35,491 bases of DNA from Candidatus Rokuibacteriota bacterium. Its GTDB lineage: Bacteria; Methylomirabilota; Methylomirabilia; Rokubacteriales; CSP1-6. The notes beneath the pieces are model-generated. The model was not told the DNA's origin. It saw only the letters and a program-made list of their open reading frames with translations, and made no database searches. A program made the translations under genes and the position numbers. Location of the stretch: assembly GCA_016866775.1 (NCBI GenBank), contig VGLJ01000050.1, positions 1 through 35,491 of the forward strand. The letters run 5' to 3'. Numbering within the stretch: position 1 is the stretch's first letter; every line of letters begins with the position of its first letter. This document shows, piece after piece, positions 7,839-10,796 of this stretch.

Positions 7839-8354
7839 ATGAAATGCCCGTTCTGCGGCCATACCGAAGATCGCGTCGTCGACTCGCGCGTCGGCCGGGA
7901 AGGGGAGTTCATCCGCCGGCGCCGTGAGTGCCTGAAGTGCCGCCGGCGCTACACGACCTACGAGTACATCGAGGACGTGCTCCCGCACGTCGTGAAGCGC
8001 GACAGCCGGCGCGAGCCGTTCGACCGCCAGAAGCTGCGCGGCTCGATCCTCAAGTCGTGCGAGAAGCGCTCGGTCGGCGTCCAGGCCGTGGACGACGTGG
8101 TCGCGGACATCGAAGCGCGCCTGCACGAGCGCGCGGAGAAGGAGATCTCGAGCCTCGAACTGGGCGAGCTCGTGATGGAGCACCTGCAGAAGCTCGACCA
8201 GGTCGCGTACGTGCGCTTCGCGTCGGTCTACCGGCAGTTCAAGGACATCAACCAGTTCATGGACGAAGTGCGCGGGCTCCTGAAGGACGACGGGAAGCCG
8301 AAGCCGCTGACGCCCGTCAACAAGCTCCGTCCTCCCGTGAAGGTGACCAAGTAG
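7839..8354 (+). CDS. nrdR: Transcriptional repressor NrdR
   Basis: 171 aa. NrdR represses ribonucleotide reductase genes, sensing ATP/dATP through an ATP-cone. The N-terminal zinc ribbon is MKCPFCGHTEDRVVDSRVG then CLKCRRRYTTYE, giving two CxxC pairs. The ATP-cone begins at about residue 49 (VVKRDSRREPFDRQKL). The C-terminus runs about 15 residues beyond the usual 150-155 with a Lys/Pro-rich tail (KPKPLTPVNKLRPPVK). ATG 7839 follows a purine-rich GAGAGGGGTGG. No NrdR boxes were recognised in the window, so its targets lie elsewhere. Confidence 0.95.
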   Translation: MKCPFCGHTEDRVVDSRVGREGEFIRRRRECLKCRRRYTTYEYIEDVLPHVVKRDSRREPFDRQKLRGSILKSCEKRSVGVQAVDDVVADIEARLHERAEKEISSLELGELVMEHLQKLDQVAYVRFASVYRQFKDINQFMDEVRGLLKDDGKPKPLTPVNKLRPPVKVTK

Positions 8355-8409
8355 GGCCGAGGCCCACAGATGGCTCGGCCCTGCCGGAACGGGAGACCGG
8401 CAGGGCCGA
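8354..8409. terminator. Two overlapping hairpins between nrdR and the convergent Lys-rich ORF
   Basis: Stem 1 pairs 8354-8361 with 8374-8381 (8 bp). Stem 2 pairs 8375-8387 with 8397-8409 (13 bp perfect, 9-nt loop). They share 8375-8381, so they are mutually exclusive. There is no U-tract on the plus side. The position between convergent units suggests a bidirectional terminator or mRNA 3' end structure; attenuation is a speculative alternative. Confidence 0.5.
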
Positions 8410-8425
8410 AGCACTTCAGCGGCGC

Positions 8426-8464
8426 TTACTTCTTCTTCTTCTTGCCGCCCTTTTTCTTGGCCAC
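8426..8464 (-). CDS. Putative 12-residue Lys-rich micropeptide
   Basis: GTG start at 8464, then eleven codons and TAA; the product is M/V-A-K-K-K-G-G-K-K-K-K-K, with 8 Lys of 12 residues. It is preceded by GGGGAGGTGA, a near-perfect Shine-Dalgarno with 7-nt spacing. A sigma70-like promoter (8503-8531, minus) lies about 30 nt upstream of the SD and strong hairpins lie just downstream, so all parts of a small transcription unit are present. The AAG run could alternatively be a slippery or stalling leader, or the transcript could act as an RNA. I recognise no family. Real transcription seems likely; translation is plausible but unproven. Confidence 0.45.
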   Translation of the reverse strand: MAKKKGGKKKKK

Positions 8465-8502
8465 CTGGTCACCTCCCCTCCCGGCACCGCTGTTCTGGCG
8501 GC

Positions 8503-8531
8503 ATGCTAGGAGCCCTGACAACTGCTGTCAA
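8503..8531 (-). promoter_or_regulatory. Sigma70-like promoter for the Lys-rich micropeptide
   Basis: Read on the minus strand: TTGACA (8531-8526), 17-nt spacer, TAGCAT (8508-8503). The -35 is perfect and the spacing optimal. An inverted repeat TGACA-N5-TGTCA (8516-8530) overlaps the -35 and could be an operator. Confidence 0.55.
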
Positions 8532-8631
8532 GCGTAAAATCCCATATACGGGGTTCCATGCGGCCCGATGACCCCAGACGTTGTTGACGCGACCCCTGCG
8601 GTTGAGCCCGAGGGACTCCGTAGACGGAGGT

Positions 8632-8660
8632 TTGACAACGCGAGGGTCGCCACGTATCGT
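8632..8660 (+). promoter_or_regulatory. Sigma70-like promoter of the B12-radical SAM gene
   Basis: TTGACA (8632-8637), 17-nt spacer, TATCGT (8655-8660). It lies 64 nt upstream of ATG 8724 and downstream of the longer possible start at 8568, which supports the later start. Confidence 0.55.
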
Positions 8661-8723
8661 GAGCGCCGTCGCCATCACGCCAGTGCGCACGAGAACGCGT
8701 CGTCACCCCCGGAGACCGACTAC

Positions 8724-10796
8724 ATGAAGATCCTCTTCGTGAACCCACGATTCCCGAAATCGTTGTGGGGCTTCCAGGGGATGTACGACCTCATCGGCGT
8801 CAGATCGGGGCAGGCGCCGCTCGGCCTGATGACCGTGGCGGCGCTCACGCCGCCCGAGATCGCGGTCGAGCTCATCGACGAGAACTGCTATCCGCTCCGC
8901 TACGACACCGATGCCGACGTCGTCGCGATCGGCTGCTGGAACGTCCAGTACCGGCGGGCGCGCGAGATCGCGGCGGAGTTCCGCCGCCGCGGCAAGCTCG
9001 TCGTGGTCGGCGGCCCGTACGCGAGCCTCTGCCCGGAGCGCTTCGAGGACGGCGCGTTCGACATCGTGTTCAACGGGGAAGTCGAGATCACCTGGCCGCA
9101 GTTCTGCCGCGACCTCCTCGCCGGCGCCCCGAAGCCGCTGTACCGGCAGATCGGCAACGTCGACATCCAGCTCTCGCCCGTCCCGCGCTACGATCTCATC
9201 AAGCCCGAGGACTACCTCTACTACTTCGCGCAGACCACGCGCGGCTGTCCGTTCGCGTGCGAGTTCTGCGACATCATCGTGACCGACGGCCGGATCCCGC
9301 GCACGAAGCCGGTCGCCCAGGTCGTCGCCGAGGTCGAGGCGATCGCCCGCCTGGGCGGGAAGTACGTCAGTTTCTCGGACGCGAACTACATCGGCAACGT
9401 GAAGTACGCCGAGGAGCTCACGCGCGCCCTCGCCGACTTCGGCCAGAAGAACGGCTACCCGGTCTCCTTCTCCGCCGAGATGACGATCACGGTCGCCGAG
9501 CGGCCGCACCTGCTCGAGCTCCTCCGCCAGGCCAACTTCACCGGGATCTTCGTCGGCATCGAGTCGCCCAACCTCGAGTCGCTCAAGGAGACGAAGAAGC
9601 GGCAGAACGTCGCCAAGCCCCTCATCGAGAGCATCCGGAAGATCCAGTCGCACAACCTCATGGTGATCGCGGGCATGATCGTCGGCTTCGACAACGACGA
9701 CACGCGGATCTTCCAGGCGCAGTACGACTTCCTCCAGGAGGCGGGGATCACGTTCACGACGTGCGGCGTGCTCACCGCGATCGAGAAGACGCCGCTCCAT
9801 GCGCGGCTCGAGAAGGAAGGGCGCCTGCTGCCGTACGACTCGGCGAACGTCCTCGGCCACGGCGCGGCGGACCTCAACTTCGTCCCGAAGCGCATGACGG
9901 CCAGCGAGGTGCACCGCGGCTACAACTGGCTGATCCGCGCGCTCTACAGCTACGACGGCTACCGCACGCGTCTCACGACCGCGTTGCGCCAGTTCCAGGC
10001 GCGGCCCGAGGTGAGCCGTCGCGGCGCCGTCGGCCTCGACTGGAAGATGGTCGGCATCGCCGTGAAGACCGCGAAATACTTCCTCTTCACGCGGTCGACC
10101 CAGCGGCGGCGGTTCTTCCTGAGCACGCTCCGCGAGGTCATCGCGATGGGGGCGTCGCCCGCGAAGCTGATGGCGGCGGTCTCGTACCTGATCGCCCACA
10201 AGCACTTCCACGAGTACGTGACGAGTGCCCACGGCGATCCCGAAGCGGTGCCCGTGGTGTCGCCGTTCAGCGGGGCCGCGACCACGCGCGAGTGGTGGCA
10301 GGCGGAGTTCGACGGCGAGCGTGTCCGTGCGTTGAAGCGGGAAGTGTCCGGCGGATGGCTCGGCTGGCTCCGCCCGCGCGGGCGGCGGGCGGTGGCCGTC
10401 CCCGAGGCGTTCCTCACGGAGAAGATCGGCGAGTGCCTCCGCCGCTACCTGGCCGAGCTCAACGTCGATGTGGTGCCGGTCGCGACCGCCGCGATCTCGC
10501 GTCTGCGCGACCGGGCCGACCTCCTCGTGCTGCCGATCCTCGGGTCCGTACGCAAGGGCCGCGAGGAGCTGCACCAGATCGCCGCGCAGCTCCACGAGCG
10601 GGTCCAGGCCGATCTGGAGCGGCTCCCGCGCGTCGTCCCGCTCGCCCTCGACGGCGATCACCGGGCGGTCATCGACGCCTTCGCGCGCATCGGATTGACG
10701 TTCACGCGCCGGGTGGAGCGGCTACGCGACGCGTACACGAAGGCGATCCAGACGGTGATGGCGCCGGGAGGCCCCGGCGTCTTGAAGCCCTTCTGA
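8724..10796 (+). CDS. B12-binding domain radical SAM protein with DUF4070-like region and long C-terminal extension
   Basis: 690 aa. Residues 1-140 form a cobalamin-binding-like Rossmann domain (MKILFVNPRFPKSLWGF; VVVGGPYASLCPERF) without the DxHxxG motif. The radical SAM cluster motif CPFACEFCD supplies C175, C179 and C182. The core (FSDANYIGN, GIFVGIESPN, VIAGMIVGFDNDD) and the region to about residue 500 resemble the DUF4070 class that includes the hopanoid C-2 methylase HpnP, but the substrate cannot be read from sequence. The last 170 or so residues (after SAHGDPEAVP) are an extra module I do not recognise. ATG 8724 was chosen because GGAGA lies 8 nt upstream and a promoter lies just before it. 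The gene appears monocistronic and ends in a family 1 repeat. A methyltransferase role is inference. Confidence 0.85.
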   Translation: MKILFVNPRFPKSLWGFQGMYDLIGVRSGQAPLGLMTVAALTPPEIAVELIDENCYPLRYDTDADVVAIGCWNVQYRRAREIAAEFRRRGKLVVVGGPYASLCPERFEDGAFDIVFNGEVEITWPQFCRDLLAGAPKPLYRQIGNVDIQLSPVPRYDLIKPEDYLYYFAQTTRGCPFACEFCDIIVTDGRIPRTKPVAQVVAEVEAIARLGGKYVSFSDANYIGNVKYAEELTRALADFGQKNGYPVSFSAEMTITVAERPHLLELLRQANFTGIFVGIESPNLESLKETKKRQNVAKPLIESIRKIQSHNLMVIAGMIVGFDNDDTRIFQAQYDFLQEAGITFTTCGVLTAIEKTPLHARLEKEGRLLPYDSANVLGHGAADLNFVPKRMTASEVHRGYNWLIRALYSYDGYRTRLTTALRQFQARPEVSRRGAVGLDWKMVGIAVKTAKYFLFTRSTQRRRFFLSTLREVIAMGASPAKLMAAVSYLIAHKHFHEYVTSAHGDPEAVPVVSPFSGAATTREWWQAEFDGERVRALKREVSGGWLGWLRPRGRRAVAVPEAFLTEKIGECLRRYLAELNVDVVPVATAAISRLRDRADLLVLPILGSVRKGREELHQIAAQLHERVQADLERLPRVVPLALDGDHRAVIDAFARIGLTFTRRVERLRDAYTKAIQTVMAPGGPGVLKPF

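Follow-up and report, generated by a model that had tools for sequence, protein, structure and literature searches.

A lysine-rich micro-ORF conserved across a bacterial order is a candidate gene for a polycationic micropeptide

Introduction

Can an open reading frame of 12 codons, encoding little besides lysine, be a gene, and if so, what might its product do? The question is raised by a short segment of a 35,491-nucleotide stretch of DNA from the MAG of an uncultured Candidatus Rokubacteria organism, the whole of which stretch we call the window. A first-pass annotation had pointed to a promoter, Shine–Dalgarno sequence, GTG-initiated frame with eight lysines and downstream hairpin as a set of signals unlikely to coincide by chance, and suggested a nucleic-acid- or ribosome-binding micropeptide, a translation-stalling sensor of lysine or polyamines, or the marker of a small RNA. 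Our search of open-licence papers returned no published description of a polylysine micropeptide family. We compared the locus with its counterparts across the order.

Results

The window copy and its signals

The unit occupies positions 8376–8531 of the minus strand, in the order promoter, Shine–Dalgarno sequence, micro-ORF and hairpin. The promoter, TTGACA-17-TAGCAT (8503–8531; −35 hexamer at 8531–8526, 17-nt spacer, −10 hexamer at 8508–8503), is sigma-70-like, with 10 of 12 consensus matches and a predicted transcription start near 8496. A scan of 1.2 kb found two sites of this grade, whereas shuffled sequence would give 0.1. The Shine–Dalgarno sequence GGGGAGGTGA (8469–8478, 10 nt, minus strand) places its GGTGA 4 nt from the start codon, and the micro-ORF (8426–8464, minus strand) runs for 12 codons from a GTG at 8464 to a TAA stop ending at 8426, encoding MAKKKGGKKKKK, in which 8 of the 12 residues are lysine. 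Beyond the stop lies the hairpin CGGCCCTGCCGG-TCTCCCGTT-CCGGCAGGGCCG (8376–8408, minus strand), with a 12-bp GC stem. Every element is thus present as first annotated.

The hairpin occurs once in the source genome, is followed by no U-run and is not flagged by a terminator scan. It sits between the micro-ORF and nrdR (7839–8354, plus strand), both of which converge on it, and so it is probably a terminator common to the two. Just upstream of the −35 hexamer, an AT-rich block, CCCCGTATATGGGATTTT (8536–8553, minus strand), is conserved among relatives compared by eye and may be UP-element-like or an operator. The divergent neighbor encodes a B12-binding radical SAM protein with DUF4070 (8724–10796, plus strand; start placed by eye at MKILFVNPRFP). 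A plus-strand promoter for this gene, TTGACA-17-TATCGT, lies at 8632–8660; as the ATG of the longest radical SAM ORF, at 8568, is upstream of that promoter, a start at 8724 or nearby is likely. Two other reading frames around the window micro-ORF were rejected: an arginine-rich alternative of 18 codons begins at a GTG within the Shine–Dalgarno sequence, lacks a properly spaced Shine–Dalgarno sequence of its own and is not kept across copies, and a tiny ORF farther upstream, which has the TGA of the Shine–Dalgarno sequence as its stop, begins at an ATG inside the −10 hexamer and is not retained among relatives.

Copies in the source genome and across the order

Chance does not reproduce this arrangement. 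A lysine-rich micro-ORF with a Shine–Dalgarno sequence was found once in the window and in none of 100 first-order Markov shuffles of it, and 376,903 bases of relatives' loci, read on both strands, gave 130 matches against none in five shuffles. All 130 map to one of two syntenic loci or, for a few genera, to a micro-ORF unit at another fixed place. The expectation that so complete a set of signals was no accident is thus borne out, with copies throughout the order.

Within the source genome, a DNA search revealed two further copies, MAKKKAAKKKKKK and MAKKKGGKKKKK, in tandem on the same strand of contig C7 and about 100 bp apart, both with strong Shine–Dalgarno sequences; these paralogs start with ATG and were consequently missed by a strict Shine–Dalgarno-plus-GTG pattern, which returned the window copy only. 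A pattern search matched 30 of 60 relatives (reversed control pattern, 0) and 51 of 95 genomes of the whole phylum. Altogether, 59 of the 60 genomes examined from the order carry the micro-ORF, comprising 58 in which copies were read and one (G092) matched in the phylum-wide pattern search; the sole exception, G034, is 64% complete. We read 130 copies in the 58 genomes, one to four per genome and mostly two or three, these counts coming from MAG assemblies of which related ones are not independent.

The two main loci differ in almost everything but the micro-ORF. At locus A, that of the window, the micro-ORF has the divergent radical SAM gene on one side and convergent nrdR, followed by glyA, on the other; at locus B, a gene for a 350-aa protein is followed by two micro-ORFs, micro1 and micro2, and by a convergent rpmB, with the stop-to-start spacing of the tandem pair mostly 45–60 nt. 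A relocated unit, flanked by genes for a phosphoribosyltransferase and an EamA transporter, was found in four genomes (genera g3 and g9) and possibly in one of family f4. Equivalents of the locus A promoter, sought with a regular expression allowing −10 variants, accompany 31 of 32 locus A-type copies, three of which, from one sub-clade, have the promoter about 80 nt upstream; 30 of the 32 also matched a regular expression for the hairpin CGGCCCTGCCGG/CCGGCAGGGCCG. Searching by the 350-aa protein rather than by pattern, in genomes mostly missed by the pattern, uncovered at least one lysine-rich micro-ORF with a strong Shine–Dalgarno sequence behind the gene at all 17 readable loci (16 Rokubacteria genomes), for example MKKKATKKKKKK and MAKKKAKKKSAKRRKATKGRKRH. 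Promoter context, 5′UTR and 3′ hairpin all differ between loci A and B, the 5′UTR varying in both length and sequence; common to the two are the Shine–Dalgarno sequence and the peptide.

Locus A is also lost. In genome G031, comparison with its sister G012 indicates that exactly the ORF is gone, with promoter, Shine–Dalgarno sequence and hairpin kept, and two locus B copies are still present (L173). About nine further genomes among those examined cleanly lack locus A, which marks this copy as dispensable.

Two features of locus B deserve separate mention. A hairpin between micro2 and rpmB, GGTGGGGGGTGGCGGCCTCCCACC (L004 3062–3085, minus strand), has equivalents in 38 genomes and is identical, loop included, in 32 of 39 matches; that of the source genome, present there in one copy, carries a compensatory change (GGCGGG..CCCGCC). 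This exceeds the conservation that an ordinary terminator would require, and the hairpin is possibly a protein site or a G-quadruplex. The 350-aa protein (L004 3278–4330, minus strand), encoded upstream of the tandem pair, accompanies the pair throughout the order and matched no Pfam or NCBIfam family.

Peptide composition and coding conservation

The 130 copies encode peptides of 10–23 residues, mostly 12–13, among them MAKKKA[AT]KKKKK. Lysine supplies 71% and alanine 19% of the residues (K 1080, A 297, T 55, R 44, G 33, S 9, V 6, H 2, P 1), and D, E, N and Q do not occur in any copy, so that there is no acidic residue; arginine is scarce (44 of about 1527 residues). Length and residue order drift and residues other than lysine and alanine are not conserved, while charge is kept: 113 of the 130 copies (87%) have eight or nine basic residues.

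Synonymous and nonsynonymous change, which the first-pass annotation had proposed to compare, can be told apart at locus A of genus g8, where seven of eight copies encode an identical peptide and differ solely at third positions; the eighth begins with ATG and has glycine in place of lysine at one codon, and 28 of 40 sites of the upstream region are variable. With all lengths pooled, third codon positions also vary most, in modest excess, a statistic that is biased outside the loci found via neighbors since the micro-ORFs were recognized partly by lysine content. Purifying selection could also act on the purine-rich mRNA, a view against which the pyrimidine-ending alanine and threonine codons argue. 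As for termination, TAG (78) and TAA (52) are the only stops among the 130 micro-ORFs, with no TGA, and the neighboring glyA and 350-aa genes mostly stop at TGA; interchange of AAG and TAG where the lysine run ends, or avoidance of RF2-only stops, could account for this.

Conservation of frame and Shine–Dalgarno sequence among relatives, on which the original proposal depended, was found, and comparative genomics strongly supports the view that the unit is real and serves to make a lysine micropeptide, with promoter, Shine–Dalgarno sequence, frame, peptide and 3′ hairpin conserved across the order. Judged by these sequence comparisons, the micro-ORF is neither a chance pattern nor a one-off and looks like a real, previously unnoticed micropeptide gene.

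Strength of the Shine–Dalgarno sequence

A Shine–Dalgarno sequence of the form GG[AG]GGTGA precedes 98% of copies. Duplex energies, calculated with the 16S tail GAUCACCUCCUUUCU, which relatives carry as such or in close variants (16S 3′ end, GGATCACCTCCT or close variants), are −21.8 kcal/mol for the window copy and on average −21.1 kcal/mol (sd 1.4) for the micro-ORFs, compared with −11.9 for nrdR, −9.9 for rpmB, −9.3 for glyA and −8.1 kcal/mol for the 350-aa gene. The spacing to the start codon is fixed per locus: each of the 24 locus A copies counted has 4 nt, and most locus B copies have 7–8 nt. The TGA of the motif (within GGTGA, window 8469–8473) is invariant in 129 copies, and the core tolerates A or G. 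Because this TGA is retained also where the 16S tail reads GGACCACC instead of GGATCACC, pairing alone is insufficient to explain it.

Discussion

A proposed polycation acting in trans

We propose, with a probability of roughly 0.6, that this is a genuine micro-gene, translated at a high level into a polycationic micropeptide whose targets in trans would be polyanions such as RNA, the ribosome, DNA or polyphosphate. A housekeeping-type promoter would yield a short mRNA of about 150 nt, onto which the near-perfect Shine–Dalgarno sequence would load ribosomes at a high rate; the product would be a 12-residue, almost pure lysine peptide with eight positive side chains, and the tandem copies of locus B would supply the same peptide from a second site. 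The micropeptide would then bind cellular polyanions, RNA or ribosomes first and otherwise DNA or polyphosphate. We infer expression of the unit, and that the peptide matters rather than the act of translating it.

Two observations suggest that the product acts in trans: loci A and B share only Shine–Dalgarno sequence and peptide, and the ORF of G031 was lost with locus B kept. This loss, together with the roughly nine absences of locus A, is the pattern expected if copies of a diffusible product are redundant; readings based on cis-regulation or a small RNA are weakened, as in both the rest of the transcript should matter. The target is suggested by charge: a peptide without a fold and without a hydrophobic face plausibly has polyanions as partners, its small size and simple sequence favoring ribosomes or RNA, and analogy with the H1-like protein AlgP bringing in DNA or polyphosphate as alternatives. 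The neighboring rpmB is convergent and thus provides no evidence for a ribosomal target. Against the proposal, 12 residues cannot fold alone, and a free cationic peptide may be rapidly degraded.

Alternative explanations

The main rival holds that translation itself, not the peptide, is what matters: a strong Shine–Dalgarno sequence followed by a slow lysine run would park or titrate ribosomes or Lys-tRNA, making the unit a ribosome sink or translation monitor. At termination a 12-residue chain would still be within the exit tunnel, which suits this reading, as do the extreme strength of the Shine–Dalgarno sequence and the known slowing of ribosomes by poly-lysine synthesis (PMC9207662). We nevertheless regard it as unlikely, as lysine is encoded mostly by AAG (986 codons, against 94 scattered AAA), so that slippery A-runs are not favored, and as mid-peptide alanine, threonine or glycine is retained and the peptides of some genera are longer and H1-like, with V, G and S among their residues.

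Rather less plausible is a regulatory small RNA in which the ORF is incidental. Its own promoter and strong, conserved 3′ hairpin would fit such an RNA, the locus B hairpin being even more conserved, but the 5′UTR is variable, the hairpins of the two loci are different, and what both loci have in common is Shine–Dalgarno sequence and coding frame. Rfam returned a single sub-threshold, chance-level match and none at gathering score in the window (8300–8760), and no match in two locus B loci. The suggested role as the marker of a small RNA is accordingly unlikely.

The idea of a stalling sensor fares worse still. A short lysine-rich ORF followed by a strong hairpin resembles an attenuator, and a leader peptide might sense lysine or polyamines; however, nrdR at locus A and rpmB at locus B are convergent, so the unit runs tail to tail into its neighbor with no cis target downstream, and a co-directional downstream gene exists only in the few copies between the phosphoribosyltransferase and EamA genes. 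We hold this function to be very improbable.

Hardly credible, finally, are a RiPP precursor modified by the neighboring B12 radical SAM enzyme, whose divergent gene adjoins many locus A copies but is absent from 16 of 17 six-kb locus B windows and from the relocated units where the peptide persists, and whose supposed substrate conserves no residues other than lysine and alanine; and, to the same degree, an exported antimicrobial or signal peptide, which has strong positive charge in its favor but lacks hydrophobic or amphipathic residues, a signal sequence and, at the main loci, a fixed exporter. The hydrophobic residues are Met, Ala and rare Val, leaving no hydrophobic membrane segment of the type I toxin kind.

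Comparison with known systems

Among known proteins, eL41 (RPL41), a 25-residue, Arg/Lys-rich basic mini-protein of eukaryotic ribosomes, is likewise the tiny, highly basic product of a free-standing gene, and locus B abuts rpmB. It differs from the polycation proposed here in its sequence, its Arg/Lys richness and its eukaryotic setting, and rpmB is here only a convergent neighbor. In the literature eL41 has been called a mini-peptide (PMC12727911). Histone H1-like proteins, such as AlgP of Pseudomonas (PMC9239181), which associates with polyphosphate granules, and Hc2 of Chlamydia (PMC2848022), are lysine- and alanine-dominated polycations, and the variants of 17–23 residues in some genera, such as MKKKAVKKGAKKKAVKKSKRK, resemble a shortened H1 tail. 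In this comparison by sequence, however, the micropeptide has 10–23 residues, with no further domain and without the long repetitive lysine-rich domain of tens to hundreds of residues, and it occurs in several copies, one with its own promoter. Leader peptides of amino-acid operons share with it a very short ORF dominated by a single amino acid, a strong Shine–Dalgarno sequence and a hairpin behind, but the main loci have no downstream gene to regulate, the copies are duplicated, and charge rather than a codon run is conserved. Of the small-ORF catalogs GMSC and sORFdb (PMC11364881, PMC11796252), GMSC lists predicted proteins from 9 residues and may therefore include single instances.

If the proposal is right, few conserved bacterial genes that have no evident role in cis-regulation would be as short as the micro-ORF, pairing as it does a translation signal far above that of its neighbors with almost no sequence content besides charge. 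It would illustrate how a gene kept throughout an order can escape ordinary gene callers by being shorter than their length limits, and would offer a clean test case for the role of a minimal genome-encoded polycation in the cell.

Look-alikes in other phyla

The pattern ATG-GCN-(AAR)3-GCN-RCN-(AAR)4 occurs in 68 stretches of the 84,980-species GTDB collection. Outside Rokubacteria, FCPU426, Patescibacteria, Brocadiales, Eisenbacteria, Armatimonadetes, Planctomycetes and DPANN archaea contribute about 30 micro-ORFs of 11–25 residues, many with a Shine–Dalgarno sequence, and about ten of the stretches belong to longer K/A-repeat proteins of other phyla. Some have recurring neighbors, named by reading their sequences: the micro-ORF precedes ftsK in FCPU426 and secA in several Patescibacteria, and in two archaea it converges with a DHH-type gene. 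Among Patescibacteria the exact form is sporadic, with only 8 of 380 sampled genomes matching at up to one mismatch. The most complete set is that of Rokubacteria. Three matches on viral contigs were set aside as the start of a longer, 149-aa protein.

These look-alikes, whose sequences are too simple for homology to be judged, hint at a class common to distant phyla, and we raise as a tentative possibility, less probable than the proposal for Rokubacteria itself, that free-standing polylysine micropeptides form a recurrent, overlooked class in bacteria and DPANN archaea, minimal polycations either ancient or repeatedly invented that might tune ribosomes or nucleic-acid compaction as polyamines do. 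One Armatimonadetes MAG holds three copies of [V/M]AKKKAAKKKKK (L233 2588 and 4079, minus strand; L234 2330), two of which lie about 1.5 kb apart within identical flanks.
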